From Thiohalobacter sp. IOR34 (lineage in GTDB: Bacteria > Pseudomonadota > Gammaproteobacteria > Thiohalobacterales > Thiohalobacteraceae), in the NCBI RefSeq assembly GCF_030406045.1, contig NZ_CP128988.1:2205438-2269437 (forward strand): a DNA stretch of 64,000 nucleotides, in the 5' to 3' direction. A program made the translations under genes and the position numbers. The notes below the pieces were generated by a model. That model did not search any database and was not told the DNA's origin. It saw only the letters and a program-made list of their open reading frames with translations. This document shows, piece after piece, positions 3,289 to 57,236 of this stretch. How positions within the stretch are numbered: position 1 is the stretch's first letter; each line of letters begins with the position of its first letter.

Positions 3289-3424
3289 AAGCTAGAAGCT
3301 AGAAGCTAGAAGCTGGAAGCTGGGAGCTGGGAGCTGGGAGCTGGGAGCTGGGAGTCTCAAGTCAGGCGGGCGATGCCCACCCTACCAGCTCCTGGCTTCC
3401 AGCTTCCTGCTTCTGGCTTCTCCC
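3289..3424. repeat. Short tandem repeats forming a large hairpin between convergent genes
   Basis: After nhaD come at least four copies of TAGAAGC, then repeats of GGGAGCTG. Further on, the complementary series CCAGCTCCTGGCTTCCAGC and CTTCCTGCTTCTGGCTTCTC precedes the stop codon of the leftward lipoate-ligase gene. The two halves can pair over about 35 bases, imperfectly. The position between two stop codons suggests a bidirectional transcription terminator built from slippage repeats. No U-tract is obvious. Confidence 0.55.
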
Positions 3425-5038: not shown

Positions 5039-5066
5039 CGTTGCCCCCCGCCGCACAATAACCATA

Positions 5067-5084
5067 GATTAGAAAGTTCTAATC
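5067..5084. promoter_or_regulatory. 18-bp palindrome upstream of the lipoate-ligase fusion gene
   Basis: GATTAGAAAGTTCTAATC has perfect 8-bp arms around a 2-bp centre. It lies 29 bases upstream of the chosen start codon. Its size and symmetry are those of a dimeric repressor site. A weak -10-like TAGGAT on the minus strand (5082-5087) overlaps it. The cognate regulator is not identifiable. Confidence 0.5.
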
Positions 5085-5143
5085 CTAAGTCTTTGTCCGG
5101 GGGACGGAATGACCCAGATCAATTCTGCCGCTGGCAGTTTTCT

Positions 5144-6511
5144 TCAGTCGCCGGCCAGGGTCAGGGGGGCGAGCAGCACCGAACCGGTGCGAATGCTGCC
5201 ACGGGTATCGATATCGCTGCCGATCGCGACCAGATCGCGGAACATATCCCGCAGATTGCCGGCCACCGTGATCTCCTCCACCGGGTACTGGAGTTCACCG
5301 TCCTCCACCCAGAAGCCGGCGGCACCGCGCGAATAGTCGCCGGTGACGATGTTCACGCCCTGCCCCATCAGCTCGGTCACCAGCAGGCCGCTGCTCATCT
5401 GGCGCAGCAGGGCCGCCTGGTCACCGGCCGTGGGGTCGATGCTCAGGTTGTGCACCCCGCCGGCATTGCCCGTGGTCTCCATGCCCAGCTTACAGGCCGA
5501 ATAGCTGTCCAGCACATAGCCTTGGAGGATACCATCGCGCACCAGGTCGCGGGGCGCGGTGGCCACGCCCTCGCTGTCGAAGGGGGCGCTGCCAAGGGCC
5601 CGCGGCAGATGGGGCTGTTCGTGGATGTGCACGAAATCCGGGAACACCGGCTGACCGAGGCAGTCGAGCAGGAAGCTGGAGCGGCGGTACAGGTTGCCGC
5701 CGCGGATGGCGCTGACGAAACTGCGGAACAGGCCGCCGGCCAGCTCGGCGCTGAACAGCACCGGTGCCTGGCGGGTCGAGAGCTTGCGCGCGCCGAGCCG
5801 GCGCAGGGTACGCTCGGCAGCGGTACGGCCGACCGCCTCGGGTGGCTCCAGGTCCTCGCGGGCCCGCGCCACCGTGTACCAGTAGTCGCGCTGCATCTGA
5901 CCGTCCTGCTCGGCGATCACCGAGCAGCTGATGCTGTGCCGGCTGCTGGGATAGCCGCCGATGAAGCCGTGGCTGTTGCCGTAGACCCGCAGTCCGGCAT
6001 GGCTGGCCAGGGTCGCCCCCTCGGAGTTGCTGATCCGGGGATCCTGGCCGCGCGCGGCATCCTCGCAGATACGGGCCAGCTCGATGGCCCGGTCGGCGTC
6101 GATATCCCAGGGATGGTAGAGATCGAGATCGGGGGTCTCCCGCGCCATGCGCTCCGCCGGGGCCAGGCCGGCGCAGCTATCCTCGCTGGTATAGCGGGCG
6201 ATGTCGCAGGCCGCCGCCACCGTCTCGCGGATCGCCTGGGGCGAGAGGTCCGAGCTGCTGGCCGAGCCCTTGCGCCGGCCGAAGTAGACAGTCACCCCGA
6301 GCCCCCGGTCGCGGTGGTATTCCAGGGTCTCCACCTCGCCCAGGCGCACCGTCACCGACAGGCCGAGATCCATGTTGACCCCGGCCTCGGCGGCGCTGGC
6401 CCCGGCCCGGCGCGCCTCGTCCAGCACCTGGGCCACCACCTTCTCCACCGCTGCGGCGTCGGGCAGGCCCGCCGCGTCGTGCTGTAATTGCCGATCCTGT
6501 TCTGTCATCAT
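5144..6511 (-). CDS. pmbA: Metalloprotease subunit PmbA (TldE)
   Basis: The product has 455 residues, normal for the family. PmbA/TldE is the partner of TldD in a heterodimeric cytoplasmic protease that matures microcin B17 and degrades the antitoxin CcdA in Escherichia coli. PmbA lacks the zinc-binding HExxxH motif, and none is seen here. Conserved features include the glycine-rich C-terminal segment around TTGNAGGVHNLSIDP. tldD lies nearby on the same strand, separated only by the divergent-then-convergent darP gene. Two adjacent ATG codons (6511 and 6508) follow an AGAGG ribosome-binding site, and the first is used here. The role in this organism, which has no visible microcin genes, is unknown. 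Confidence 0.95.
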   Translation of the reverse strand: MMTEQDRQLQHDAAGLPDAAAVEKVVAQVLDEARRAGASAAEAGVNMDLGLSVTVRLGEVETLEYHRDRGLGVTVYFGRRKGSASSSDLSPQAIRETVAAACDIARYTSEDSCAGLAPAERMARETPDLDLYHPWDIDADRAIELARICEDAARGQDPRISNSEGATLASHAGLRVYGNSHGFIGGYPSSRHSISCSVIAEQDGQMQRDYWYTVARAREDLEPPEAVGRTAAERTLRRLGARKLSTRQAPVLFSAELAGGLFRSFVSAIRGGNLYRRSSFLLDCLGQPVFPDFVHIHEQPHLPRALGSAPFDSEGVATAPRDLVRDGILQGYVLDSYSACKLGMETTGNAGGVHNLSIDPTAGDQAALLRQMSSGLLVTELMGQGVNIVTGDYSRGAAGFWVEDGELQYPVEEITVAGNLRDMFRDLVAIGSDIDTRGSIRTGSVLLAPLTLAGD

Positions 6512-6553
6512 CGCCTCTGTCTGTTGTGTGTTGCCTGTCCGCCGCTCCAGCTG

Positions 6554-6577
6554 CTAGGGTCTGTCAACAGACCCTAG
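6554..6577. repeat. Perfect palindrome between pmbA and darP
   Basis: CTAGGGTCTGT and ACAGACCCTAG are separated by two bases. It lies in the 76-bp space between the divergent pmbA and darP starts, so it is not a terminator of either gene. It may be a regulator site, or a remnant of the REP-unit flank, which also contains TGTCAACAG followed by a run of C. Confidence 0.5.
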
Positions 6578-6587
6578 TCTCGCCGCC

Positions 6588-7124
6588 ATGCCGAACGAAG
6601 AGCACAGCACCGCCCCCGCGGAACATCAGCCCCCCAGCAAGTCCCAGCGCAAGCGGGACAGCCAGGCGCTGCGCGCCCTGGGCGAGACCCTGGTCGGGCT
6701 GCCCGAGTCGCGACTGGCACAGATCGAGCTGCCCGAGACGCTGCGCGAGGCCGTGGACCTGGCGCGGCGCATCAAGGCCCACGGTGGCCGCAAGCGCCAG
6801 CTGCAGTACATCGGCAAGCTGCTGCGCGGCATGGACGCGGCGCCCATCCAGGCCGCGCTGGAGGCCATGCGCCAGCAGGATGCCCGCGCCAGCCGTCGCT
6901 TCCACCAGCTCGAGGCACTGCGGGAGCGGCTGATCGAGGACGGCGATGCGGCCCTCGGCGCCCTGTTCGAATCCTACCCCCAGGCCGACCGCCAGCACCT
7001 GCGCCAGCTGATCCGTCAGGCCCAGCGCGACCGGGGCGCCGACAAGAGCCGCGGTCCGCGCGCCCTGTTCCGCTACCTGCGGGAACTGGACGAGGCGGTG
7101 GCCTCCGGCCCCGACGACGCCTGA
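6588..7124 (+). CDS. darP: Ribosome maturation protein DarP (YjgA, DUF615)
   Basis: The product has 178 residues and is mostly helical and highly charged, as expected. The N-terminal segment PPSKSQRKRDSQALRALGE is the family signature, followed by LPESRLAQIELPE. YjgA/DarP associates with late 50S ribosomal precursors in Escherichia coli and assists assembly and decoding-centre maturation. It runs opposite to its neighbours pmbA and tldD, an arrangement common in gammaproteobacteria. It converges on tldD with only five bases between the stop codons, and the two stops lie in the arms of a small hairpin (7118-7136). Confidence 0.93.
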   Translation: MPNEEHSTAPAEHQPPSKSQRKRDSQALRALGETLVGLPESRLAQIELPETLREAVDLARRIKAHGGRKRQLQYIGKLLRGMDAAPIQAALEAMRQQDARASRRFHQLEALRERLIEDGDAALGALFESYPQADRQHLRQLIRQAQRDRGADKSRGPRALFRYLRELDEAVASGPDDA

Positions 7125-7136
7125 CCGGCTCAGGCG
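7118..7136. terminator. Small hairpin spanning two convergent stop codons
   Basis: CGCCTGA, a 5-base loop and TCAGGCG form a perfect 7-bp stem. Each arm contains the stop codon of one gene (darP and tldD). There is no U-tract, so a terminator role is only a possibility. Confidence 0.3.
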
Positions 7137-8575
7137 CTGGTGCCGCCCACCGTCAGGCCGTCGATGCGCAGCGTCGGCTGACCGACCCCGACCGGCACGC
7201 TCTGCCCGTCCTTGCCGCAGGTACCGACCCCCTTGTCCAGCTGCAGGTCGTTGCCGACCATCGACACCCGGGTCAGTACCTCCGGGCCGCTGCCGATCAG
7301 GGTGGCACCCTTCACCGGCCGGGTCACCTTGCCACCCTCGATCAGATAGGCCTCGCTGGCCGAAAAGACGAACTTGCCGGAGGTGATGTCCACTTGGCCG
7401 CCGCCGAAGTTGACGGCATACAGGCCGTTGTCCACCGAGGCGATGATCTCTTCCGGCGCCTGCTCGCCGGGCAGCATGTAGGTGTTGGTCATGCGCGGCA
7501 TGGGCTGGTGGGCATAGGACTCGCGCCGGCCGTTGCCGGTGGAGGCCACCCCCATCAGCCGCCCGTTCAGCTTGTCCTGCATGTAGCCCCTGAGCACCCC
7601 CTTCTCGATCAGCACCGTCTGCCGGGTGGGCGTACCCTCGTCGTCGATGTTCAGTGAGCCACGGCGCCCCGGCAGGGTGCCATCGTCGACCACGGTGCAC
7701 AGCGGCGAGGCCACCGTCTCGCCGAGCCGGCCGGCAAAGGCCGAGGTGCCCTTGCGGTTGAAATCGCCTTCCAGACCATGACCGACGGCCTCGTGCAGCA
7801 GCACCCCCGGCCAGCCGGGCCCCAGCACCACGGTCATGTTGCCGGCCGGCGCCTCGACCGCCTCCAGGTTGACCAGCGCCTGGCGCACCGCCTCGCGGGC
7901 ATGCCAGAGGGCGGCATCATCGCTGGTGAGCAGCTCGTAGCCACCGCGCCCGCCGCCGCCCGAGCTGCCCTGTTCGCGGCGCCCGTCGTGCTCGACGATG
8001 ACGCTGACGTTGACCCGCACCAGCGGCCGCACATCACCGGCCAGGGTGCCGTCGCTGGCCGCCACCAGCATCACCTCGTGCACGCCGGCCAGGCTGACGA
8101 TCACCTGCTGGACACGCGGATCCTGGCGCCGTGCCTCGGCATCGATGCGCTGCAGCAGGGCCACCTTGTCGTCGGCGCTCATCGTCTCCAGGGGATCGAG
8201 CGGCCGGTACAGCCCGGCATCGCCGGACGGCTGCCAGGCGCGGAGTTCGACCTGGCGACCACTGCGGGCAATGGCGCGGGCCGCCCCGGCCGCCTGCTGC
8301 AGGGCCGGCAGGACGATCTCGTCGGAATAGGCGAAACCGGTCTTCTCACCGCTGATCGCCCGTACCCCGGCCCCCTGCTCGATGCTGTGATTGCCCTCCT
8401 TGACGATGCCATCCTCCAGCATCCAGGACTCGAAACGGGTCGACTGGAAATAGAGGTCCGCGGCATCGACGGCATGCCCCAGCATGCTGTCGAGCACCCG
8501 GGCAAGGTCGTTCTCGCCGAGGCCGGCCGGGGCCAGCAGATGTTGGCGCGCCAGTTCGAGACTGTCTTCACTCAT
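7130..8575 (-). CDS. tldD: Metalloprotease TldD
   Basis: The product has 481 residues, the standard length. The zinc site is visible as HEAVGH (His261, Glu262, His265), with the conserved third ligand cysteine at 453 in GTCGKDGQ. TldD is the catalytic half of the TldD-TldE protease, which processes unfolded peptides in the cytoplasm; pmbA encodes the other half. The gene begins 37 bases downstream of the amidase gene (stop at 8613) and is the last member of the leftward group yhdP - small secreted protein - nit - tldD. All catalytic residues are present, so the enzyme should be active. Confidence 0.96.
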
Positions 8576-8612
8576 TGGTCGGTCTTCTGTGGTGATGGGC
8601 GGGGTGCCGCGT

Positions 8613-9431
8613 TCAGCGGCAGCTGAGCCGCCGGTGTTCGAGGCTGGGAAAGTGCCGCCGGGTGGCCTGCAGCTGGCCGAGATCGATCTGTGCCTGGACC
8701 GCGCCGGTGCCGCGCGTCAGCCGCCCTACGACGTTGCCCCAGGGATCGACCACCATGGAGTCACCGTGGGTCTCGCGGCCGTTGACATGGTAGCCGCCCT
8801 GGTTGGCGGCGATGACGTAGCACAGATTCTCGATGGCCCGGGTCCGGACCAGTGTCTCCCAGTGCGCCTTGCCGGTGATGGCAGTGAAGGCGGAGGGCAC
8901 GGCGAGCAGTTCCATGCCCTGGTCGATCATGGCGCGGAACAGCTCCGGAAAGCGCAGATCGTAGCACACCGCCAGGCCGAGCCGGCCGAAGGGGGTGTCG
9001 ACCACCCTGACCTCCTCGCCCGCCTCGATGGTCTCGGACTCGGTGTATCTCTCGCCGATCTCCGGCACCTCGACATCGAACAGGTGCAGCTTGTCGTAAC
9101 GCGCCACTCGCTCGCCGCGATCGTCGTAGAGCAGGCAGGCGGCGCGCACCTTGTGCGCATCTGCGGCCTCCAGTGGCACGGTGCCACCGACCACCCAGAC
9201 CCCCAGCTGACGCGCCTGCTGGGCGAGAAAATCCTGAATCTGACCGCCGCCGTCGGCCTCGCGGATCTCCACCTTGTCACTCTCGTCCATGCCCATCAGG
9301 GCAAAGTTCTCGGGCAGGACGATGAGCTCGGCACCCGCCTTGGCCGCTTCCGCCATCAGCCGCTCGGCCTCGAGCAGGTTGGCGCTGACATTCGGCCCCG
9401 AGGCCATCTGGATCGCAGCGACCTGTGTCAT
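8613..9431 (-). CDS. Carbon-nitrogen hydrolase of the Nit family (deaminated glutathione amidase type)
   Basis: The product has 272 residues. The nitrilase-superfamily catalytic triad is intact: Glu41 in LPENFALMG, Lys114 in [14 protein letters not shown] and Cys156 in [14 protein letters not shown]. The motif [15 protein letters not shown] fits the Nit1/Nit2-like branch, in which bacterial and eukaryotic members hydrolyse deaminated glutathione, a metabolite-repair reaction. The enzyme is cytoplasmic. The start codon overlaps the stop of the upstream small gene in ATGA, so the two are probably translationally coupled. The position between yhdP and tldD is usual in gammaproteobacteria. The precise amide substrate is inferred from the family. 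Confidence 0.88.
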
Positions 9432-9784
9432 GGTATCTGGTTCTCCTTGTTCTCGCCGTCGACCACCTCCAGGCGCAGGGCCGCGGCCTCCACCCCGCCC
9501 GGCAGCAGCTCGATGCGCGCCGAGGGCACGCCCAGGGCCACCAGCCAGCCACGCAACTGGTGGGCCCAGAGTCCGCCTTCCTCACCCCCCGGATGGTGCA
9601 GCAGCAGGCGACGCCCGGGTTCGGCGTCAAGCGCCGCCACCGCCTGGCGCAGGGGCTCGATACGCACCAGAGCCTCCCCCTGCCTGGGACGCGCCCAGAC
9701 CTCGGCGGACAAACTGAAGGAAAGCGGATCGGCGACGCTGGACACCGGCCCGAAGAGGGCCGCCAACAGCATAAATTTCTTCAT
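9428..9784 (-). CDS. Small secreted protein of unknown function
   Basis: From the ATG at 9784 the product has 118 residues and begins MKKFMLLAALFGPVSSVAD, a clear signal peptide; a start at 9802 would add six residues and weaken it. The mature part (about 99 residues) shows no recognised motif. It has a pattern of hydrophobic alternation around WAHQLRGWLVALGVPSARIEL that would suit a small alpha/beta fold of the OmpA-like or BON-like kind, but this is a guess. The gene lies between yhdP and nit and overlaps the nit start by four bases. The conserved setting suggests a real gene in an envelope-related operon. Confidence 0.65.
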   Translation of the reverse strand: MKKFMLLAALFGPVSSVADPLSFSLSAEVWARPRQGEALVRIEPLRQAVAALDAEPGRRLLLHHPGGEEGGLWAHQLRGWLVALGVPSARIELLPGGVEAAALRLEVVDGENKENQIP

Positions 9785-9818
9785 CTTTCCAGCATACCAC
9801 AAAGCCCGGCGGCGGCGC

Positions 9819-12800
9819 TCAGCGCGGTCCCGGTGGGGACGGGGGCGACTCGGCGCCGTCCGCTTCGAGGCGCACGAACCGGGGATCGTCCCAACTGCCG
9901 GTCACCGTGTACTGATAGCGGGCCAGTCCCTCCAGTTGCCGGCCGAGGAGGCGGTCGGCGAGGAACAGGGCAGCGCCGACCGCCGGCCCGCCGGCCAGCG
10001 CCCCGGCGATGGGCAGGCCGGAACGCACATGCGGCACCACCGTCACCAGCTGATCGTAGTCGCGGGCCGCCAGGCCGGTACGGCCGGAGATCTCGATCCG
10101 TGCCGAGGGCCCCTCGATGGTCAGGTCGTTGGTGTAGGCATCGGAATCGATGATCGTGAAGTGGCCCTCGATGCTGTCGAAGGCGAACCCCTTCTTGAAC
10201 AGGTCACCGAAGTCCAGAGTCAGCCGCCGCGGGATGGCCTGCAGGCTGAGCAGGCCGAAGATCCGCCCCGCACCCGGTTCCAGCTTGGTGAGGTAGCCCT
10301 TGCCGATGCGGATGTCCAGGGTCCCCTCCATGGCCGGCAACGAGAACTCGGTCGGCGCCCCTGGCCAGTTGGCGCTGATCTCGGCCTCGGTGCGCCCCCC
10401 CTGGATACCGTCGCCGAAGCCAATGTTCTCCAGCAGCCGGCCCAGATCCTCGGCGGTCAGCCTGACCTTGAAGCGCGAGGCATCCTCGCCGGCGACCCGG
10501 GTCCACTGGCCGCTGGCCTGCAGCTGGATCCAGTCGGCCCGGATCTCCATCTGCTCGACCTGCATGCCCTGGGGAATGGGCCGGGTCCTCACGCGGACCT
10601 CGCCCAGGTCGTGGTCCTGATAGACGAAATGCCGGATCTCGGCCTCCAGTGCCGGCAACTCGTCCGGCACCACCTTGTCCGCCTGCGCCGCGGCCGCCTC
10701 GGCGCGACGCAGGGACAGGCGCTGCATGTCGAGGCGCAGGGTGCCGCCCTGCAGCGGCTGGGGCAGGAACAGGCTGCCGGCGGCATCCGCGCCCTCGAGG
10801 GTCACCTGCCAGCCCGTGGCCTCGCGCCGGGCCTGGATCCCCTGCTCGCGAAAGCGACGGCCGAAGAGTTCCAGCTCGGCGATCTCCAGCTGCACCCGCC
10901 GCAGCTCGGCAAAGGGGCTGCCACCCGTCGAGTCCCCACCCAGCAGTGGCCGCCACTCGTCCAGGTCGAAACGCGCCAGGCGGCCACCGAGATAGAGGAC
11001 GGGTTTCTCCGGCAGGGCCGCCGGCCCGGCATTGAACAGCAGCCGGCCACGCTCGATGCGCAACGGGCCCTCGCCGTCGGCCAGCCGCAGCGCGGCGCTG
11101 TGCGGCCCATAGCTGATCCGCAGCGGCCCCGGGCTGTGGTCCTCGAGCACCGTGTCGAGGCGGAAACCGCGCGCCGCCTCGGCGACCTTGCCGAGCGGCG
11201 CCGGCAGATCGACGCCAATGCCGCGCAGGTCGGAGGCCAGCGACAGCCGGTTGACGGCCGGGCGTCCGGCCGCTGCCGGATGCACGTCCACCTGCACCCG
11301 CCAGTCGGCCCGCCCGGCGAGGTGGCGCCACAGGGGCAGCGGCTGCTGGCGGAGCCGCTCGACCAGCGGCAGCCGGCCCTGCAGCTCGACCCGGGTGAAA
11401 GGCGCACCCTCGAGCTGCCGCTCGTCGATGGCCAGGCGCACCGGCGTCTCCCACAGGCGGCCCTCGATGGCCTCGGCGCGAAGCCCCCGCTCGGTGAAGT
11501 GCAACCGACCCTTGAGGTCATCCAGGGCCAGCTCCCAGCGTCTGAACGCCAGCCGGTTGCCATCCAGCCTGAGGCGGCCGTCGACCCCCAGGTGCTGGCC
11601 GTGACTCTTGCGCAGCGGGATATCGAGACGGATATCGAGGGCCGCCGCTCCCCGGCCCTCCAGCTCGGCCAGCGGATAGCCGCGGTCGGCGAGGGGACTC
11701 TCGCGCACGAAGCGCAGCATGCTGGCCAGGGGCCCCTGGGCGTGGCCTTCGGCCTGCAGCCGTGACCGGCCCAGGTGTTCGATGCCGACCTGCACCCGGC
11801 TCAGATCGACATCGAGGATCTTGGCCGAGACGGCATCGATCGCCATACGGTCGTCGAGGAAGGCCACCTCGGCCTCGATAGCCTCGATGCGGTGCCACTC
11901 CGGCCTGTAGTCGAGCACGCCGTCGGCCACGTTGAGGCGGACCTCCATCCGCCCCTGCCCCTGGCGGAAAGGGAAATCGGTCGGCCGGCCAAAGAAGATC
12001 AGGCCACCGGAACTGATCTCGCCACCGACCAGGGCACGGTTCAGCCAGGCCACGGCCCGTGGCGACATGACCCGCGCCGGCAGATAGCGACCGACGGCGC
12101 CCACCTCGCCGTGCAGCACGGCGGTCTGCAGATCCAGCCAGGGAGGTCCGCCGTCCCCCGGCAGGTCGATACGCAGCCGGCTCAGGGTCGAGAGGTCCGC
12201 CGTGGCCAGTTCCAGCGAAGGGCTGTCCAGGCGCAGGCGGTCGGCATAACGCCGCCAGTCGAGAGCACCGCGCAGCGTCTCGATGCGCAGCGGGCCGGGG
12301 AACAGGCGCGGCATGTCCAGCCCGACGCCACGGCTGTCGAGCACCAGACGGCCGCGCTCCGGGCCACCCTCCAGCAGGCCGCTCAGTCCCTGCACGCCGG
12401 GCAGGGATTCCCAGGCATCGACCGCCACCCCCTGGAAGGCGGTACGGAACAGCAGCCCCTCCGGCCGCCCCTCGGCCTGTTCGAAGGCCAGCTTCAGGCC
12501 ATGCAGGGCGCCGCGCGGGCGCAGCCCGTCGAGCATCGCCCGCTGCTCGGCAGTGAGCGGCAGCAGGCGGGCGATCAGAGGCCGCAAGGGGGCGATCTCG
12601 AGGTAACCGGCACTGAGCTGCAGCCCGAACCGATCCTTGCCCAGGACGCGGTAACGCAGTGCCGCATGGCTGTCCGGCCAGACATGGTCGGCCCAGTTGA
12701 GCCGCAGCCGGTCGAGATCCAGCATCCAGCCGTCGGCCTCGTGCCGCCAGTCGAAATCGGTCTGCACCCGGCTGGCGGCGAACAACGGCAAGGGTTCGCG

Positions 12801-43477: not shown

Positions 43478-44143
43478 GGGAGGACAGCCACGGAACACAG
43501 GGACGTGCAAGGGCCTTACCGATAACCGCGAAATCCACGCAACCCGCGAAAAAGACGGGAATGCGGTATGCGCTCCGCGCAAGGCCGGCCGCAAGCTCCA
43601 AGCCATTTTATGTTTTCGTGGATTTCGTGGGTTTCGTGGCCACATCCCCGGCTGCGCATTCCCGGGGAACATCCCGGAACGGTCAAACAACCTGAAGGCT
43701 GATGGGAGGACAGCCACGGAACACAGGGACGTGCAAGGGCCTTATCGATACCGCGAAATCCCCGAAACCCGCGAAAAAGACGGGAATGCGGTACGCGCTC
43801 CGCGCAAGGCCGGCAGCAAGCTCCAAGCCATTTTATGTTTTCGTGGATTTCGTGGGTTTCGTGGCCACATCCCCGGCTGCGCATTCCCGGGGAACATCCC
43901 GGAACGGTCAAACAACCTGAAGGCTGATGGGAGGACAGCCACGGAACACAGGGACGTGCAAGGGCCTTATCGATACCGCGAAATCCCCGAAACCCGCGAA
44001 AAAGACGGGAATGCGGTACGCGCTCCGCGCAAGGCCGGCAGCAAGCTCCAAGCCATTTTATGTTTTCGTGGATTTCGTGGGTTTCGTGGCCACATCCCGG
44101 CTGCGCATTCCCGGGGAACATCCCGGAACGGTCAGGCAACCTG
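43478..44143. repeat. Tandem array of about three copies of a 225-226 bp unit
   Basis: Copies begin at 43478, 43704 and 43929 with GGGAGGACAGCCACGGAAC and differ by a few bases only. Each contains CGCGAAATCC...AACCCGCGAAAA near the start and TTTTCGTGGATTTCGTGGG later, which form an imperfect inverted pair. The last copy runs into the stop codon of panD (44132-44134). No coding function is apparent. A minisatellite-like expansion by slippage or unequal recombination is the simplest origin. Confidence 0.9.
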
Positions 44144-49797: not shown

Positions 49798-49864
49798 CCT
49801 GAATTCTGGATTCTGAATTCTGGATTCTGAATTCTGGATTCTGAATTCTGGATTCTGGATTCTG
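49798..49864. repeat. Short tandem repeat of about 14-16 bp
   Basis: About four copies of GAATTCTGGATTCT and shorter variants lie between the RDD stop codon and the hemerythrin promoter. The array can form alternating small hairpins. It may terminate or attenuate transcription from upstream. Confidence 0.8.
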
Positions 49865-49870
49865 ACAAAC

Positions 49871-49912
49871 TTGACCTTCATCAAACCAGTCGCGCCGGTA
49901 CCCTTCTATAGT
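49871..49912 (+). promoter_or_regulatory. FNR/Anr-type promoter of the hemerythrin gene
   Basis: TTGACCTTCATCAA (49871-49884) matches the FNR consensus TTGAT-N4-ATCAA at nine of ten positions. The -10 box TATAGT is at 49907-49912. With transcription starting near 49919 the site is centred at -41.5, the classic position for direct FNR activation. Confidence 0.65.
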
Positions 49913-49944: not shown

Positions 49945-50352
49945 ATGCCATTCGACCACGCAGACATCCCGCTCGTCGCCCTCGACCAGATGAACGACTT
50001 CCATCGGGAAGAGGTCGAAATGATCAACCGGGTGGAAACCCTGGCCCGCAGCGGGGACGAGGCAGACCTGGCGGAGACCCTGCGCGAGTTCCTGAACCAC
50101 ATCCGCAGCCACTTCGCCACCGAGGAGGCACTGATGCAGGCGGCCGGCTTCCCGCCCTTTCCCATCCACAAGCAGGAACATGACCGGCTGCTGGCCGAGC
50201 TGGGCGAGTGCGAGACGATATGGATGGAAAACGGTGACCCGGCCCCTCTGGTCGACTACATCTGCCGGACCATCCCGCAGTGGATGCAGCAGCACGTGGC
50301 AACCATGGACCGGGTCACGGCCCAGTTTCTGGCCATGACCGGAGCCGGTTGA
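49945..50352 (+). CDS. Bacteriohemerythrin
   Basis: The product has 135 residues. The diiron ligands of the family are in place: His20 in NDFHREEVE, His52/His56/Glu60 in NHIRSHFATEEALM, His75/His79 in HKQEHDRL and a final His/Asp pair in QQHVATMD. Bacteriohemerythrins bind oxygen reversibly through a non-heme diiron centre, and help oxygen supply or sensing in microaerobic cells. The upstream FNR-type promoter fits low-oxygen expression. Residue numbers are approximate. It is monocistronic as far as can be seen. Confidence 0.88.
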   Translation: MPFDHADIPLVALDQMNDFHREEVEMINRVETLARSGDEADLAETLREFLNHIRSHFATEEALMQAAGFPPFPIHKQEHDRLLAELGECETIWMENGDPAPLVDYICRTIPQWMQQHVATMDRVTAQFLAMTGAG

Positions 50353-50406: not shown

Positions 50407-51057
50407 CTAACCCCCCGCCTCCTGCCGCGAACGAATCCATTCCAGGTCATCGCTCACGAAACGCCCGGCCAGTCGGGCCAGGGCGCGATAGAAGGGATGG
50501 GCCTCCCCCGTCTGCAAGCCGTCGCAGAATGCCGGCAGCCAGCGGCCGAGGTGGCGTTCGAGGAAATCGCGCTGGGCGTGCAGATACTGCGACGGGCCGT
50601 TGGCATCCTTGACGACAGAAGCATCCTGCCGGGCGGCCACCACGGATCTATAAACCAGGACATGCATGAACTCCAGTTCAAGGGCCAGGTGATCCGGCAT
50701 CTCCTGGCCCTCTCCGTTCATCGCCAGCCCGAAGAAGTGATAGAACTTCTTCACCTCCCACTGCTGCTGTGCACGGTCGCCGTCCAGCCACAGCGCCTCG
50801 TAGGGCTTGCAGTAGGCCTTCTGGTCGACGCCATCGAAGCGGTTGATGTAATCGTTCTCGAGCGCCGGCAGATCCGGCTGCACCAGATCCTTGAGTCCGA
50901 GATCCGGGTATAGGGTCGTGCCCAGGGCGTACAGCTCCGGCGTCGCAGCGAGCAGCAAGCGGCCAGGAAAGGAAAAACCGAGGGCCAGCAGCTGGTAGAG
51001 GCGGCTGCGGTTGATGTCGACCTCCAGCTCGGGGGTGAGTTGCTCTGCAGTGTTCAT
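50407..51057 (-). CDS. TorD-like chaperone of the molybdoenzyme operon
   Basis: The start at 51057 (MNTAEQLTPELEVDINRSRL) follows a GAGAG sequence and gives 216 residues. The helical pattern and the segments YDLYEALWL-like (YCKPYEALWLDGD), FYHFFGLAMN and PDHLALELEFMHVLVY match the TorD/DmsD/NarJ family of redox-enzyme maturation chaperones. Such proteins bind the Tat signal or apo-form of the molybdoenzyme and help cofactor insertion. It is the fourth gene of the operon, 29 bases after the heme-b subunit gene, and is probably the delta protein of the type II DMSO-reductase system. It is cytoplasmic. Confidence 0.85.
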   Translation of the reverse strand: MNTAEQLTPELEVDINRSRLYQLLALGFSFPGRLLLAATPELYALGTTLYPDLGLKDLVQPDLPALENDYINRFDGVDQKAYCKPYEALWLDGDRAQQQWEVKKFYHFFGLAMNGEGQEMPDHLALELEFMHVLVYRSVVAARQDASVVKDANGPSQYLHAQRDFLERHLGRWLPAFCDGLQTGEAHPFYRALARLAGRFVSDDLEWIRSRQEAGG

Positions 51058-51086
51058 CGGCGTTCTCTCATCTGTTGCCAGAGGGT

Positions 51087-51809
51087 TCAGTTCTGGATGT
51101 TCAGCGTGTTCATCCCCGAGCGGTACTTGCGGCCATTGCGCTCCCGGTTGTCGCCGTCCCAGGTGGCGAAGGCGATGGGGTAGCTGCCCCCGGGAAACAG
51201 GTCGATCTGGTCGTCTGGATCGATGGCTGCCAACGGGCGACTCAGGACCACCTGCCACTGACTGCCGTTCCAGCTGCTGATGGCGGAAATATTGTCGCCA
51301 TTGACGGTCTGGGTAATGGTACCGAGACCGCCGGAAAGCAGGTTCTGCACGCTGTCGTCCACCGCACGCCAGTACCAGATATTGGTCGGGTTGCTGGGCT
51401 GGCCCATGCGGCAGATCATGTTGGCATTGAGCATGACGGCGCCGGCGTCGGTGAAGTTCTCGGGCCCCTCGATGACGTCGTCCCGGGTCGCGTCGTTCCA
51501 GGTCAGCAGGAAAGCGATGTCGGTACCGTTGTGAATGGCCTTGACACTGAGGGAGCTGTTGCTGCCACCGCCGCCCATCGTGTCGCCTTCCACCGAATCG
51601 GTGAACTTGAGGGTGACGTTGACGGCCGTGGCATTGTTCCATACCGGATCAGAGGGCGGGACCAGCACGTCGCCGCTGACGCGCACTGCAGTCAAACCGT
51701 CCCCACCACCGCCACCACCGCCCATGCCCCAGCGGGCATCGGCAGCGAGCGGCAGCGCCAGGACAGCTGCAACGAGATACGAGGCAATTTTCGTTATCAG
51801 CGTTTTCAT
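51087..51809 (-). CDS. Heme-b (gamma) subunit of the type II DMSO-reductase complex
   Basis: The start at 51809 has GGGGGAAGG just upstream and gives 240 residues, with a signal peptide ending near AADARWG. A glycine-rich linker (GMGGGGGGGDG) follows. The rest resembles the ethylbenzene-dehydrogenase gamma domain: VSGDVLVPPSDPVWNNATAV near the start of the mature part, and a C-terminal GRKYRSGMNTLNIQN that contains candidate Met and Lys heme ligands. Homologues SerC, ClrC, DdhC and EbdC bind one heme b and pass electrons between the Fe-S subunit and a soluble cytochrome c. It is periplasmic. The ligands have not been aligned. Confidence 0.8.
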   Translation of the reverse strand: MKTLITKIASYLVAAVLALPLAADARWGMGGGGGGGDGLTAVRVSGDVLVPPSDPVWNNATAVNVTLKFTDSVEGDTMGGGGSNSSLSVKAIHNGTDIAFLLTWNDATRDDVIEGPENFTDAGAVMLNANMICRMGQPSNPTNIWYWRAVDDSVQNLLSGGLGTITQTVNGDNISAISSWNGSQWQVVLSRPLAAIDPDDQIDLFPGGSYPIAFATWDGDNRERNGRKYRSGMNTLNIQN

Positions 51810-51820
51810 GACCTTCCCCC

Positions 51821-52792
51821 TCACAGGCTGTAGCGGTTGTTGGAGTTGAGCAGTTCCAGGATCTCGGAGCTGCCGCCGCTGCTGACGGTGTCCCGCTCGG
51901 CGCGCAGGGTGGCGATGACGCCATCGACATCGGGACCGAACAAGGAGCGCAGGAAGTCCATCGGAATGCGATCGACGTTCAGTGGCCGCCCCTGGTCGTC
52001 CACCTGGGAGGATCCGGAGAAAGGCGGGATGTAGTAGACATTGGGCCCGGTCCCGTATTCCGGATGCAGCGGGATGGCCACCTGGTGCTGCACCACCAGC
52101 TTGTAGACGTCGGCGCTGCTGTCGTCGAGGAAGCCCACTTGGCGGATGCGCCCCGGACACTGCTTGGCGCAGGCGTTGACCTCGCCCTTCTCGATACGCG
52201 GATAGCAGAAGATGCACTTCTCCGACTGCTTGGTGAAGGCGTTGTACATCACCTTCTTGTAAGGGCAGGCACGGACACAGTAGCGATAGCCGCGGCATCG
52301 CTCCTGATCCACCAGCACGATACCGTCCTCCTCGCGCTTGTAGATGGCATTGCGCGGACAGGCCGCGAGGCAGGCCGGGTCGGTGCAGTGATTGCACAGC
52401 CGAGGGATGTACATGTAGTAGTTGTTGGGGAAGGTGCCTTCACCCACGTCCTCATCCCAGTTCGACAGCCAGGTCGGCTCAGGGTTGGCATCGACGATGC
52501 CGCCGCCCTCGAACAGACCACTCTGGTAATCGTAGTCGGGATCACGCCCGTAGTCGTCGCGGGTGGGCAGGGTACCGAGCTGCACGTTGCCGTTGGCATC
52601 GAAGCCGCCTCCCATCCCCTCCCAGTTCCTCGGATAGCCGGGTCCGGGCTTGGACTCGACGTTGTTCCAGTACATGTACTCCCTGCCCTTCTTGTTGGTC
52701 CAGAGATTCTTGCAGGCGACGGTGCATGTATGGCAACCCAGGCATTTGTCCAGGTTGATGACCATCGCCAATTGCCGACCGGTGAATGCCAT
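51821..52792 (-). CDS. Iron-sulfur (beta) subunit of the type II DMSO-reductase complex
   Basis: The product has 323 residues. Four cysteine clusters are visible: C17LGCHTCTVAC27, CNHCTDPACLAACP, CRGYRYCVRACPYKK and CIFCYPRIEKGEVNACAKQCPG. In the third, a tyrosine stands where the second cysteine would be, which by comparison with NarH predicts a 3Fe-4S cluster; the others should be 4Fe-4S. No signal peptide is present, as expected for a partner carried out by the Tat signal of the alpha subunit. The gene is 15 bases after alpha and 11 before gamma. The sequence is close to the SerB/DdhB/ClrB/EbdB group. Confidence 0.9.
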   Translation of the reverse strand: MAFTGRQLAMVINLDKCLGCHTCTVACKNLWTNKKGREYMYWNNVESKPGPGYPRNWEGMGGGFDANGNVQLGTLPTRDDYGRDPDYDYQSGLFEGGGIVDANPEPTWLSNWDEDVGEGTFPNNYYMYIPRLCNHCTDPACLAACPRNAIYKREEDGIVLVDQERCRGYRYCVRACPYKKVMYNAFTKQSEKCIFCYPRIEKGEVNACAKQCPGRIRQVGFLDDSSADVYKLVVQHQVAIPLHPEYGTGPNVYYIPPFSGSSQVDDQGRPLNVDRIPMDFLRSLFGPDVDGVIATLRAERDTVSSGGSSEILELLNSNNRYSL

Positions 52793-52807
52793 GATTCAGC
52801 CCTCCAC

Positions 52808-55615
52808 TTAACCGTTATATTTTTCGACCTGTACCCGGGTGTCGCGCTGCACGCCGGTCGGGCCCCAGTAGTTCAATTTGAAATGGAGCTGGCCATATCC
52901 GCCGGCAAGCTGGGTGGGCTTGATGCGGATGCCGGTCACGCTGTTGAAGTTGGCCTTCTTGCCCTTCACCCCCACGTAACGTTCCCAGCCGTGGTACATG
53001 GTGACCCGCCCGGCCTTCTCGGCCTCCCAGGCCTTGACCCGCACCACGACGTCGCCGTGGTCGTTGTAGATACGCACCCAGTCGTTGTCCTGCAGGCCGC
53101 GCGCCGCCAGGTCCGAAGGGTGCATGTAGCAGATCGGCCCGCCACGGTTGAGACGCAGCATCTGCTTGGCGTTGCGCCAGGTGGAGTGGATCGACCAGCG
53201 TCCGTGCGGGGTGTTGTAACGCAGCGGGTAGGTATCCTCGTCCACCGGCGCCTTGTAGGTGGGCAGCGCCTCGCCGCATTCCACGAACCAGTCATGTTCT
53301 ATCAGGTACTGCTGACGCCCGGTCAGCGTCTCATAGGGCTCCTTGTGCTCGGTCATCTTGAGGAAGGCCGTGTAGGGACGGCCCGGCTCGATATCGCTGG
53401 TCCAGGTGGTCTGGGCGTTCATGCGCCGGGGCTGGGCATCGATCTGGGCCATGGTCATGCCGGCCGTCTCCGGCGCGTTGTCGAGCATGAACTGGCAGGC
53501 GTCGATGTCCGCGGCCAGCGCGCCGTTGTCGGTGAACTGGTCGCTCAGAGTCGACAGATCCCGGTTGCCACCCCACTTGGCGTCGTAGTAGCTGGTGAAG
53601 CCGCGCTGCACGGCACGCTCCTGGATCTTGGCCGCCAGCGCCTGGAAGGTCTGCCAGTCGGTCTTCGACTCGAACATCGGCGGGATCGCCGGGGTGAAAG
53701 GATGGATGAAGCTGTGCATGTCCGTGGTGTTGATGTCGTACTTCTCGTAGTGGCTGGCGGCCGGCAACACGACATCCGCATACAGGGCCGTGGTATCCAT
53801 CTGGAAGTTGATGTCGACGATCAGATCCAGCTTGGGATACAGGTTCTGCTCGACGTAATTGTTGCCCTTGGCCTGGTTGAACCAGTTGGCACGCCAGATG
53901 AACATCACCTTGGGGTCCTTGACGGTCGCCCCGGTGCTGACGAATGTGTTCTTGTCGCTGCCCAGGCAACTCTCCGGGTAGAGCGGCATCCAGCCGTTCT
54001 GCACCGAGTCGAAAATGTAGCCGCGTGTCGTCTGGCTGTAGCCCTCGCCGCTCAGGTTCTGGTCGCTCATGTTGGCGTGAACGAAGGTCCACATGGTGGT
54101 GTTCTGGAAGCGCTGTTTCTTGCCGCCCTGCGGGAAGGACAGCTTGACCAGCCCCTTCACCGGCCAGATCTTTTCCTGGCCCACGTAGTGGTTGAATCCG
54201 CCACCGTTCTTGCCGATGGCGCCGCACAGGGAGAGCATCAGCAACATGGCGCGGTTGTTGAGGTCGTTGTGGAACCAGTGGTTGGTGCCGGCGCCGTGCA
54301 TGATCATCACCCTGCCGCCGGTGGCCATGGCGGTATCGCCGATATCGGCGGCGACCTGCTCGATGACGTCGGCGGCTACGCCGGTGACGGGTGCGGCCTG
54401 GGCCGGGGTATGATTGGCGTCGAGATGAGCCTTGAGTTCCTCGAACACCGGCTTCACGGTCACGCTGCTGCCGTCGGCCAGGGTCACGCTGTGGCTGCCG
54501 GTCAGGGCCGGGCTGTGGCCGCTGATGTCGATGGAACGGATGCTGCTGCCCTCGGTGCCGGGCGCCAGTTCCAGCGCGTTGTGGGTGGAACACCAGAAAT
54601 AGAACTGGTCGTCGGCGCCGCCCGAGACCATATCGCTCTCCCGCAGATACTTGCCGGTGTCGGTGCGCATCAGCAACGGCATGTCGGTCTGCTCGGCCAG
54701 ATAGCCCTCGTCGATGGTGCCGTTGGCGATCAGCTGCTGGCAGATGGCCAGCGCCAGGGCGGCGTCGGTGCCCGGGGTGACCGAGAACCACTGGTCGGCG
54801 CGGATGGCGCTGGAGGTGTAGTCCGGGTAGATGGCCAGCACCTTGCAGCCGCGGTACTTGGCCTCGGTGATGAAGTGGGCGTCCGGGATGCGGGTCTGCA
54901 GCGGATTGGAACCCCAGAGGATCATGTACCTGGCGTTCATCCAGTCGGTGGACTCGGCGACGTCGGTCTGCTCGCCCAGGGTAATGGGCGAACCGGGAGG
55001 CAGGTCGCAGTACCAGTCGTAGAAACTGCAGACGATGCCGCCCAGCAGGTGGGCCAGGCGCGCGCCGGAGGAGAAGGACACCGGACTCATGGCCGGAATC
55101 GGGGTGAAGAAGGTCAGCGCGTCCGGCCCCTGATTCTCGATGGTGTCCAGCACCTTGTCGGCGATCAGGGTCAGGGCCTCGTCCCAGGAGGCGCGCCGCC
55201 ACAGCCCCTCACCACGGGCCCCGGTGCGGATCAGCGGGTACTTGATGCGCCGGTCGCCATTGACATACTCGGCGGCATAGCAGGCCCCCTTCTGGCAGCC
55301 ACGGGGATTGACGTTGGGATAGGACGGGTCGATGTCCGGGTAGTCCGCCGCCTGTTCCTCGCGCAGGATGACGCCGTCCTTGACGTAGACGTTCCAGGAA
55401 CATGAACCGGTGCAGTTCTGACTGTGGGTGCTGCGCGCCACCGTGTCCCAGGTCCACTGCTCGCGGTAGAAGTCTTCCCAGCCACGGTAGGGATAGTTGA
55501 ACGGATCATCGACGATCTGCAGATTGAGGCTGCTGAGCCCAAAGACCTTGATGGATGCTGCCGAGGCACTCGTCCCCACCAGCATTTTCAAGAACATGCG
55601 ACGCTGAATAGCCAT
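52808..55615 (-). CDS. Catalytic (alpha) molybdopterin subunit, type II DMSO-reductase family, periplasmic
   Basis: The product has 935 residues. A Tat signal is visible as RRMFLKMLVG at residues 5-14. The FS0 cluster motif is His64-x3-Cys68-x3-Cys72-x34-Cys107, the histidine-containing form of the NarG-like branch. FYDWYCDLPPGSPIT includes Asp200, the likely molybdenum ligand by comparison with NarG. VDINFQMDTTALYADVVLPA is the conserved C-terminal block. The family includes selenate (Ser), chlorate (Clr) and perchlorate (Pcr) reductases, dimethylsulfide dehydrogenase (Ddh) and ethylbenzene or sterol hydroxylases (Ebd). The substrate cannot be assigned. Gene order alpha-beta-gamma-delta matches ebdABCD more than serABDC. 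No chlorite dismutase gene is present. Confidence 0.88.
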   Translation of the reverse strand: MAIQRRMFLKMLVGTSASAASIKVFGLSSLNLQIVDDPFNYPYRGWEDFYREQWTWDTVARSTHSQNCTGSCSWNVYVKDGVILREEQAADYPDIDPSYPNVNPRGCQKGACYAAEYVNGDRRIKYPLIRTGARGEGLWRRASWDEALTLIADKVLDTIENQGPDALTFFTPIPAMSPVSFSSGARLAHLLGGIVCSFYDWYCDLPPGSPITLGEQTDVAESTDWMNARYMILWGSNPLQTRIPDAHFITEAKYRGCKVLAIYPDYTSSAIRADQWFSVTPGTDAALALAICQQLIANGTIDEGYLAEQTDMPLLMRTDTGKYLRESDMVSGGADDQFYFWCSTHNALELAPGTEGSSIRSIDISGHSPALTGSHSVTLADGSSVTVKPVFEELKAHLDANHTPAQAAPVTGVAADVIEQVAADIGDTAMATGGRVMIMHGAGTNHWFHNDLNNRAMLLMLSLCGAIGKNGGGFNHYVGQEKIWPVKGLVKLSFPQGGKKQRFQNTTMWTFVHANMSDQNLSGEGYSQTTRGYIFDSVQNGWMPLYPESCLGSDKNTFVSTGATVKDPKVMFIWRANWFNQAKGNNYVEQNLYPKLDLIVDINFQMDTTALYADVVLPAASHYEKYDINTTDMHSFIHPFTPAIPPMFESKTDWQTFQALAAKIQERAVQRGFTSYYDAKWGGNRDLSTLSDQFTDNGALAADIDACQFMLDNAPETAGMTMAQIDAQPRRMNAQTTWTSDIEPGRPYTAFLKMTEHKEPYETLTGRQQYLIEHDWFVECGEALPTYKAPVDEDTYPLRYNTPHGRWSIHSTWRNAKQMLRLNRGGPICYMHPSDLAARGLQDNDWVRIYNDHGDVVVRVKAWEAEKAGRVTMYHGWERYVGVKGKKANFNSVTGIRIKPTQLAGGYGQLHFKLNYWGPTGVQRDTRVQVEKYNG

Positions 55616-55740: not shown

Positions 55741-55758
55741 ATGACCCATCTTGGTCAT
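55741..55758. promoter_or_regulatory. Perfect inverted repeat, candidate operator
   Basis: ATGACC, six bases (CATCTT) and GGTCAT form an 18-bp symmetrical site about 125 bases before the alpha start and 60 bases before the rightward promoter. A further TGACCC follows at 55764. The PAS-LuxR regulator encoded at 56369 is the obvious candidate to bind it; this is inference. Confidence 0.5.
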
Positions 55759-55900: not shown

Positions 55901-56245
55901 TTGCTGTACTGGCTCAAACAGACACTGGGCGGATTGCTGATCGTTTCGCTCATCGCGGCAGGCAATCTCTGCGGCTGGCAGCCCTGCGCCATGGCAAACA
56001 CTGACAACATGACGCATGCCGGCCATGCCATGGGCAAGATGGCCGACGGCTCGATGCTGAAGAACGGCGGCACCCACTGTCAAAACAGCTGCAGCTGCTG
56101 CTTCAGCACCTCCCGCCTGCTGGGCCTGCCCCCCGTCGAATCCCTTCAGGCATCCCTGCCGACGCCAGCCTATCTGCCCAGCCGGATCCCCGATTCGGCC
56201 GGCATCCTCACCCCACCAGATACCCCGCCACCGCGCAGTCTCTGA
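55901..56245 (+). CDS. Small exported Cys/His/Met-rich protein
   Basis: A TTG start at 55901, with GGGGGAGGA upstream, gives 114 residues. A signal peptide of about 30 residues (LYWLKQTLGGLLIVSLIAAG) is followed by HAGHAMGKMADGSMLKNGG and HCQNSCSCC, a dense set of potential metal ligands. The C-terminal half is proline-rich (PDTPPPRSL). No family is recognised with confidence; it recalls small periplasmic copper-binding or CopL-like proteins. It lies between the molybdoenzyme operon and the PAS-LuxR regulator gene. Metal binding is inferred from composition only. Confidence 0.55.
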   Translation: MLYWLKQTLGGLLIVSLIAAGNLCGWQPCAMANTDNMTHAGHAMGKMADGSMLKNGGTHCQNSCSCCFSTSRLLGLPPVESLQASLPTPAYLPSRIPDSAGILTPPDTPPPRSL

Positions 56246-56368
56246 CCCTGCACAATCGGAACACCGGTCAGCGGCGACAGATCGTGATGCCGGTCCGTGC
56301 CCATGCCAGCGGCGCAAGACATGCGTGGCGGGCACAAAAACAACAAAGAACAGAGAAGGGGTAGAGAA

Positions 56369-56998
56369 ATGAATGGCATTTACGAAATATTCAAGCGAAG
56401 TACCGATGCCATCTTTGGCATCGACAGAAAAGGTCAGGTCGCCTTCTGGAACCCGGCCTGCGAGGAGCTGCTCGGCCACCCCGCCCGCCTCGCCCTGGGC
56501 CAGCATTGCTCCAGCCTGCTCTGCGGCACCGATCTGCTGGGCCGGGATTTCTGCAGCGAGCGCTGCCCTATCCCCAAGGGGTGCAACGGTCACGCACCGA
56601 TCCGCGACTTCGATCTGGTGGTGAAGCGGGCCGACGGCGATGCCCTTATGGTCAACATCGGCGCCCACTATGTACCGGGCAGTCGCCAGCAGCGACTGAA
56701 CGGCATCAGCGTGTTCTTCGCCCTGCGGCGGGTAAGCTGCCAGCAGCTCATTCAGCGTCTGGCCAGCAGTTCCTGCAAGGCCGAGGAAGAAGACGGCTTC
56801 AGGAAACATGACCTGAGCGCACGGGAACACGAGCTGCTGCACCTGGCCGCCGCCGGCCTGAAGACCGGAGACATCGCCAGGCGTTCCTGCATCAGCGAGG
56901 CCACGGTACGCAATCACTTCAAGAGCATCTACCGCAAGCTCGGCGTGCACAGCCGGGCCGAGGCGGTCAGCCTCGCGATGCGCAAGGGGCTGGTCTGA
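56369..56998 (+). CDS. PAS-LuxR transcriptional regulator with a cysteine cluster
   Basis: The start at 56369 (MNGIYEIFKRSTDAIFGIDR) follows AAGGGG and gives 209 residues. A PAS domain (about 1-120) contains GQHCSSLLCGTDLLGRDFC and SERCPIPKGC, five cysteines within about 30 residues, a spacing that could hold an Fe-S cluster or heme. The LuxR-type helix-turn-helix (about 146-205) is LSAREHELLHLAAAGLKTGD followed by IARRSCISEATVRNHF. There is no receiver domain or kinase gene nearby, so it may be a one-component redox or metal sensor. Its position facing the molybdoenzyme operon suggests it controls it. Confidence 0.8.
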   Translation: MNGIYEIFKRSTDAIFGIDRKGQVAFWNPACEELLGHPARLALGQHCSSLLCGTDLLGRDFCSERCPIPKGCNGHAPIRDFDLVVKRADGDALMVNIGAHYVPGSRQQRLNGISVFFALRRVSCQQLIQRLASSSCKAEEEDGFRKHDLSAREHELLHLAAAGLKTGDIARRSCISEATVRNHFKSIYRKLGVHSRAEAVSLAMRKGLV

Positions 56999-57236
56999 GA
57001 CTTCGGCGTTTCAAGGAATCCAACTGCGCGCCGTGACCCGCCGCTGCGGCATCATGGCGGGCAGGGTCCGCCCTCCAGGCTACATGCCGCAGCAGCCAAG
57101 GAATCCTGCCTGTTTTCCGTGGCTTCCCTGGCTATCAGCTTTTTGTGGATTTCGTGGGTTTCGTGGCTATCGCCTGTTCCGCCCAACGGCGGCACGGCAG
57201 GCAAATCCGCCCGCGAGTGCAGGCCCCAGGCCGCAA
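56999..57236. other. Intergenic region between the regulator and lptG
   Basis: The 238 bases hold no gene. A block at 57141-57167 (TTTTGTGGATTTCGTGGG and on) matches the sequence inside the tandem repeats at 43.5-44.1 kb in 26 of 27 positions. GCATCATGGCGGGCAGGGTC nearby is unremarkable. The gap separates convergent genes, but no clear terminator is seen. Confidence 0.5.

Follow-up and report, generated by a model that had tools for sequence, protein, structure and literature searches.

A putative soluble periplasmic nitrate reductase operon, probably acquired horizontally, in Thiohalobacter sp. IOR34

What does the exported molybdoenzyme of Thiohalobacter sp. IOR34 act on? The enzyme is encoded by four genes in a 64,000-nucleotide stretch of contig NZ_CP128988.1 (positions 2,205,438 to 2,269,437; hereafter the window), where they span positions 55615 down to 50407 of the minus strand in the tight order alpha-beta-gamma-delta. 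A first-pass annotation of the same DNA had described a complete periplasmic operon of the type II dimethyl sulfoxide (DMSO) reductase family with unknown substrate. On the sequence evidence given below, we consider it probable that the operon was gained by horizontal transfer and encodes a soluble nitrate reductase of the periplasmic Nar type (pNar). Nitrate was among the substrates that the annotation had listed, and to that extent it was right; the uncertainty was overstated, given nitrate-type residues in the active site and rejection of membership in the EbdA and ClrA clades.

The composition of the operon was as first described, both by open reading frames (ORFs) and by NCBIfam and Pfam matches. 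The alpha gene (52808..55615) encodes a pNarG-like catalytic subunit of 935 residues with molybdenum bis(molybdopterin guanine dinucleotide) (Mo-bisMGD) as its expected cofactor; it carries the twin-arginine translocation (Tat) motif QRRMFLK and scored 1136.8 bits against the type II model TIGR03479 (cut-off 984.75). Its FS0 cluster ligands are H64, C68, C72 and C107, the His-Cys3 motif that had been reported. Beta (51821..52792, 323 residues) is a four-cluster Fe-S subunit resembling EbdB, PcrB and NarH, at 501.2 bits against TIGR03478 (cut-off 480.7), with Cys motifs at 17, 133 and 166, the third of which (C166-RGYRY-C172) includes the tyrosine seen earlier. Both model cut-offs, the Asp ligand of Mo and the His-Cys3 FS0 site place alpha and beta in the type II family, and the Tat motif agrees with a periplasmic location. 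The delta gene (50407..51057, nested in a frame at 50407-51642) encodes a NarJ/TorD-like maturation chaperone of 216 residues, over the cut-off for Nitrate_red_del (PF02613). Purine-rich stretches were found upstream of alpha, beta and gamma.

The gamma gene (51087..51809, with its ATG at 51809) is nested in a frame at 51087-52397 of the raw ORF list. Its product of 240 residues is a secreted, EbdC-like heme-b subunit, over the cut-off for EB_dh (PF09459), with an N-terminal hydrophobic stretch that resembles a signal peptide, as judged without a predictor. EbdC (77 bits) and Kuenenia NxrC (75 bits) both matched gamma. Each has a Met and a Lys aligned with M135 and K228, which were invariant in all four gammas aligned. 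Met135 and Lys228 are the predicted axial ligands of heme b, and Met/Lys ligation has been described for EbdC (PMC8840923; papers are cited throughout for excerpts of their text). Gamma has no hydrophobic C-terminal tail, stopping where two aligned haloarchaeal gammas continue with a hydrophobic segment, a difference read from the alignment rather than from a membrane-helix predictor.

We compared by alignment the residues by which, according to PMC8301774, nitrate and perchlorate enzymes can be told apart. The window alpha has N67, W74, F198, Y199, D204 (the Mo ligand), Q216, T217, H446 and E481, with a gate (F198/Y199/E481) of the nitrate type. All nine positions were identical in 15 of 15 NarG rows and in both Terriglobia rows, and the five haloarchaeal rows agreed everywhere except at 446, which is Asp. 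PcrA differs at three of the nine, with His74, Gly217 and Trp481 in the numbering of the window alpha, the last being the gate residue of perchlorate reductase. Rows of the EbdA/ClrA branch had Lys at 446 (9/9) and never the Phe-Tyr pair (0/9). The window alpha unites the features that mark pNar: a Tat motif, a Phe-Tyr/Glu gate and a Trp after FS0. The QT motif also occurs in both Kuenenia-type nitrite oxidoreductase (NXR) rows, and therefore QT alone cannot separate nitrate reductase from NXR.

A tree of the alpha subunit, a kind of check that the annotation had suggested, was built with care from 33 rows. The window alpha grouped with haloarchaea, Terriglobia, PcrA and NarG, and a nine-row EbdA/ClrA branch split off at 100/100. 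A tree of alpha and beta together (24 rows, ten named rows being omitted for a missing beta or for redundancy) agreed with this grouping. Approximately unbiased (AU) tests rejected the window alpha as a member of the EbdA clade (p-AU 0.00057) and of the ClrA clade (p-AU 1.5e-14); these two groups were chosen once the tree was known. Placement in the group of NarG, haloarchaeal pNar and PcrA is firm, and only the sister within it is not. The window alpha adjoined cytoplasmic NarG with modest support, at 83/81 in the alpha tree and 84/89 in the alpha and beta tree. In a quick tree with two NXR-like rows added, and with four of the NarG rows and one of the ClrA rows removed, it joined the haloarchaea at a Shimodaira-Hasegawa-like approximate likelihood ratio (SH-aLRT) of 95, and the NXR-like rows formed a separate branch of length 2.04.

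Sequence searches named the same relatives. Among the matches listed from named genomes (the best 80 loci), two Terriglobia metagenome-assembled genomes (MAGs) came first, at 56% and 50% by tblastn, followed by haloarchaea at 48-50% and the rest at 31-35%. Eighteen of these loci entered the trees (L032, L033, L034, L108 and 14 NarGs). Left out were L035, of the same species as L020, L036, with alpha in two frames, and L027, with an unclear frame; NarG loci from the same-family search were likewise not in the trees. In a plasmid collection, tblastn with alpha put three haloarchaeal alphas on top (47-49%), then two ClrA (35%) and then NarG. Over the alignment, identity to alpha was 56 and 52% for the Terriglobia MAGs, 50.7-51.9% for haloarchaeal pNar (five rows), 39-42% for NarG, 31% for EbdA and 27-28% for two Kuenenia-type NXR alphas. 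The haloarchaeal plasmid records are annotated merely as molybdopterin-dependent oxidoreductase; we read them as pNar on the strength of their operons, which correspond to the nar cluster of PMC8301774 and PMC7754194. The characterised haloarchaeal pNar reduces nitrate (PMC8301774, PMC6299022).

Close relatives of alpha are rare near the host. At E <= 1e-75 a match was found in 6 of 369 genomes of a class sample, including the host's own, the other five at <=40%, and in 1 of 398 genomes of an overlapping phylum sample, again the host's own. Ten relatives of the same family yielded no close full-length alpha among the matches listed, which included a NarG in G003 (51% over residues 133-322) and a contig-end fragment in G008 (41% over residues 191-332). 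A scan of viral contigs confirmed no relative, and a plasmid search with ClrA at 1e-50 returned five records, all ClrA or haloarchaeal, with no SerA or DdhA. Two further loci of the host's class, L121 and L122 (genomes G042 and G024), hold Kuenenia-type NXR alphas; L122 matches 7b04_B of the PDB at 1527 bits, and L121 was assigned by its grouping with L122 in the quick tree, without a PDB check. Locus L036, from a MAG labelled Syntrophus aciditrophicus, encodes at 2892-9903 a multiheme cytochrome, a Rieske-like protein and an alpha of the NarG kind with the sequence FYDWYCD, the alpha being read in two open frames.

Gene order had been compared in the annotation with that of ethylbenzene dehydrogenase, ebdABCD. 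The order itself was given correctly, and the comparison proved misleading. Haloarchaeal operons read hypothetical-Rieske-cytochrome b-(small)-alpha-beta-gamma-TorD, with a gamma related to ethylbenzene dehydrogenase, and therefore an order like that of ebdABCD is also common to nitrate reductases. Alpha-beta-gamma(EB_dh)-TorD in the window corresponds to this haloarchaeal arrangement, whereas clrABDC has its chaperone ahead of gamma. With the haloarchaeal enzyme (NarGH, Orf7 and a NarJ/TorD-like chaperone, as in Haloferax) the window operon has in common the Tat alpha, the gene order, the Glu gate, the Phe-Tyr pair, the Trp after FS0 and a Lys near FS0. It differs in having His446 for Asp, in the shorter gamma and in its upstream side, where no genes for a Rieske protein or cytochrome b were found; the whole stretch between the flanking RDD and lptG genes has none. 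The closest alphas, those of the Terriglobia (Acidobacteriota) MAG operons L032 and L033, share the gene order, H446 and the Glu gate with the window, and have QTE where the window has QTD. In L032 the order alpha-beta-gamma-delta runs from near the contig start, with gamma and delta assigned by Pfam. L033 (4945-12935) differs from the window in a cytochrome b and a 487-residue c-type cytochrome directly before its pNar-like alpha-beta-gamma-delta genes (gamma and delta by eye), and is a candidate bacterial quinol-linked pNar.

Cytoplasmic NarGHI has an active-site loop nearly identical to that of the window enzyme. However, NarG rows are 1177-1211 residues long, against 935 residues in the window, and the window alpha has a Tat motif where a cytoplasmic NarG would be expected to have no export signal. 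NarI, the partner of NarG, sits in the membrane and carries two hemes b (PMC8840923). We found no NarI-like anchor at the operon, as had been noted; the genome has a single PF02665 match (46.7 bits, cut-off 22.9), which lies far away and is DsrM-like, at 171.5 bits against DsrM and below the DsrM cut-off of 300.

The operon lies on what is best read as a genomic island, horizontally acquired between genes that are adjacent in the relatives read. The 7.4 kb between the RDD and lptG genes hold a hemerythrin gene, the operon, a gene for a small secreted protein and a PAS-LuxR gene, and the first-pass annotation had already pointed to the regulator and secreted protein next door. In 6/6 same-family genomes read, the RDD match ended 28-375 bp from the LptG match, and tblastn found none of the island genes in these six stretches; LptG had matches in eight genomes of the family besides the host's, and the six are these without the fragmented G008 and G010. 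The guanine plus cytosine content of island genes was 61.7-64.0%, compared with 67.4-69.0% for RDD, LptG and LptF. No integrase was seen among the island genes. The window alpha is not acid-rich (10.9% Asp plus Glu, versus 17.5 and 18.6% in two haloarchaeal alphas), and therefore recent direct transfer from a haloarchaeon is unlikely.

Several findings weigh against a nitrate reductase. Among solved structures alpha matched PcrA best (936 bits), then NarG (559) and EbdA (398), and PcrA was 50.0% identical to alpha over 866 aligned columns, nearly equal to haloarchaeal pNar; beta matched EbdB best (403 bits), then PcrB (379) and NarH (248). K109 is common to PcrA, haloarchaea and Terriglobia and is Arg in 14 of 15 NarG rows. 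AU tests on alpha gave p-AU 0.244 for the window with Terriglobia, 0.139 with PcrA (a single row) and 0.112 with haloarchaea, and those on alpha and beta gave 0.255 with Terriglobia and 0.078 with haloarchaea. NarG, Terriglobia, PcrA and haloarchaea are thus each a possible sister, and function by clade is therefore weaker than function by residues. Gamma and delta fell under the cut-offs of TIGR03477 (147.9 bits, cut-off 169.85) and TIGR03482 (107 bits, cut-off 152.3). Haloarchaeal pNar and PcrA each accept more than one oxyanion (PMC8301774). Nap, which catalyses the same reaction, is already in the genome, and NCBIfam at 1e-20 had no match for the NirS-like protein, two other cytochrome-cd1-type proteins or the NorB-like protein of the host, all of them being called from Pfam matches and sequence. 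An AlphaFold model of alpha from nine sequences had a mean predicted local distance difference test (pLDDT) score of 57, with active-site loops below 50, and was too poor to inspect.

An enzyme for perchlorate or chlorate, respiratory or detoxifying, is unlikely. It would account for the strength of the PcrA match and the PcrA sister relation allowed by the AU test, and haloarchaeal pNar itself reduces chlorate and perchlorate (PMC8301774). PcrAB of Azospira also shares the Phe-Tyr gate, H446 and the Lys near FS0 with the window. The residues argue the other way: the window has Glu rather than Trp at the gate, W74 rather than His, and QT rather than QG. The gamma subunits differ in kind, that of Pcr being a heme-c protein (PMC8840923) and that of the window an EB_dh protein. 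Pcr has a linked cld gene (PMC4623255), whereas PF06778 had 0 matches across the host genome, in agreement with the absence of chlorite dismutase stated in the annotation. Perchlorate reductase was set aside on the gate Glu and the lack of cld.

We regard a periplasmic NXR working in the oxidative direction, with gamma passing electrons to cytochrome c, as rather improbable. The NXR of Ca. Nitrotoga has the same layout, namely a Tat alpha, a beta, a Sec-exported heme gamma without a transmembrane helix and a chaperone (PMC6050957); moreover, the window gamma matches Kuenenia NxrC, and cytochrome c is a fitting partner for a heme b of high potential. On the other hand, the two NXR alphas of the Kuenenia type are only 27-28% identical to alpha and form their separate long branch, and the host has a nitrate-reducing pathway. 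The motif Y-4x-D-11x-Q is followed by M in Nitrotoga and N in Nitrospira (PMC6050957) and by T in the window, as in NarG; this is weak, since the Kuenenia-type rows have QT as well. NXR of the Kuenenia/Nitrospira type was rejected on identity and on the separate branch of the quick tree, without an AU test.

It is very doubtful that the operon encodes a dehydrogenase or other oxyanion reductase of the Ebd/Ddh/Ser/Clr branch, acting on a hydrocarbon, dimethyl sulfide, selenate or chlorate. Subunit types are the same as in the window, and EbdABCD shares its gene order, an EbdC-like gamma and the best beta match. Yet the alpha is only 31% identical to EbdA, both clades of the branch that were tested (EbdA and ClrA) are rejected by AU, and the branch has Lys446 in all nine rows and no Phe-Tyr, where the window has H446, F198 and Y199. 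Alpha reached 442 bits against the ethylbenzene dehydrogenase equivalog NF042978, for which the cut-off is 2000. Ebd was excluded as a candidate by the AU test and active-site residues, and Clr by the AU test, a gene order different from clrABDC and the lack of cld. A nitrate-type enzyme with another physiological role (bromate, iodate, selenate or redox balancing) is highly improbable: the broad substrate range of haloarchaeal pNar (PMC8301774) and the redundancy of a second nitrate reductase beside Nap speak for it, but among the island genes none was seen that would evidently deal with the products of such reactions.

If the enzyme is the pNar that we propose, delta would load Mo-bisMGD into alpha, and folded alpha-beta would be exported by Tat and join Sec-exported gamma. 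Electrons would pass from quinol through the bc1 complex, an assumed step, to c-type cytochromes and on to the Met/Lys heme b of gamma, then along FS4 to FS1 and FS0 to the Asp-ligated Mo, where oxygen would be taken from nitrate in the periplasm. The potential of heme b is +256 mV in ethylbenzene dehydrogenase and +324 mV in dimethyl sulfide dehydrogenase (PMC8840923), and cytochrome c therefore fits as donor better than quinol directly. The nitrite formed could then be used by NirS without transport, and no nitrate importer would be needed. The host might keep the enzyme beside Nap for added capacity, for work in another redox window or for a wider choice of oxyanions.

Periplasmic Nar enzymes were first characterised biochemically in archaea, and a possible pNar has been noted in some Firmicutes (PMC6299022). 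Also in print are the closeness of haloarchaeal NarG to PcrA (PMC6650914), and a Nitrotoga periplasmic NXR clade and a periplasmic Nar of Hydrogenobacter (PMC6050957). Nothing was found on the present proteobacterial variant in a literature search with partial coverage, by title and start of abstract, which is weak evidence. As the electron donor of archaeal periplasmic Nar is described as an open question (PMC7754194, PMC8301774), a bacterial pNar with neither adjacent cytochrome b and Rieske genes nor a gamma tail would permit a direct test of whether the heme b of gamma alone accepts electrons from a soluble cytochrome. The window enzyme is placed close to where pNar, perchlorate reductase and cytoplasmic NarG meet in the tree, and bears on how nitrate reductase switched sides of the membrane. 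We suggest, tentatively, that it may represent a rare, deep bacterial lineage of exported Nar enzymes of ~935 residues that branches just below all cytoplasmic NarG. Such an enzyme would be a surviving relative of a stage that preceded the cytoplasmic turn and the exchange of the soluble heme-b gamma for NarI, running soluble and cytochrome-c-fed without a quinol dehydrogenase of its own.

The host genome (one contig, 2.96 Mb) looks like that of a complete denitrifier without NarGHI. NapA was over its cut-off, and its gene neighbours are presumably napF, napG, napH and napC, as named from sequence. The nir cluster encodes a NirS-like protein, which is of the cytochrome cd1 type and carries a cytochrome c motif. 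The genome also has a NorC/NorB-like pair and a Sec-type NosZ over its cut-off; no NarG was found in it. Six proteins matched PF00384, and none of the five other than the window alpha is a type II alpha. Besides NapA they are NuoG (over cut-off), two that fall below the cut-offs of the models for formate dehydrogenase, NasC/NasA and NapA that they match, and a SoeA-like protein, as we take it to be, for which PhsA was the sole match listed, again below cut-off. The nir cluster (2.8705-2.8900 Mb) holds three cytochrome-cd1-type proteins together with four regulators, presumably of the NirD/L/G/H kind.

Regulation of the operon was examined in the sequence around it. Sites of the form TTGAY-N4-RTCAA precede the nirS-like, norC-like, napF-like and hemerythrin genes, the last as an FNR/DNR-like box, TTGACCTTCATCAA, at 49871. 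No TTGAT-N4-ATCAA was found upstream of alpha, even allowing two mismatches. The divergent gap between alpha and the secreted-protein gene contains a perfect palindrome, ATGACCcatcttGGTCAT (55741..55758; ATGACC-N6-GGTCAT, with 6-bp arms), which is a candidate operator; a repeat search there with a minimum length of 10 gave nothing, the palindrome arms being only 6 bp. Scans for promoters and for terminators each gave one hit, fewer than the averages of 1.6 and 4.0 in shuffled sequence. The PAS-LuxR (GerE) regulator (56297..56998, plus strand; a start at 56369 is also possible), over the cut-offs of PF00196 and PF00989, is the natural candidate to bind the palindrome and probably turns the operon on.

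The remaining island genes are also on the plus strand. The hemerythrin gene (49945..50352) encodes a bacteriohemerythrin over the cut-offs of PF01814 and TIGR02481. The small secreted protein (55901..56245), which contains Cys, His and Met, had no NCBIfam or Pfam match; with several His and Met residues and the Cys-rich CQNSCSCC, it looks metal-binding. The RDD gene is followed directly by 4.7 copies of the 14-bp tandem repeat CTGAATTCTGGATT (49799..49864), at the island's left edge. Near the right edge a pattern search found a match of a dispersed repeat, TTCGTGGNTTTCGTGG (57151..57166, plus strand), which had 118 matches in the genome (64 forward and 54 reverse, some overlapping), compared with 0 for the reversed-pattern control. 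The same repeat occurs at 43615-44074 of the window, and the places listed are often inverted pairs ~70-170 bp apart.

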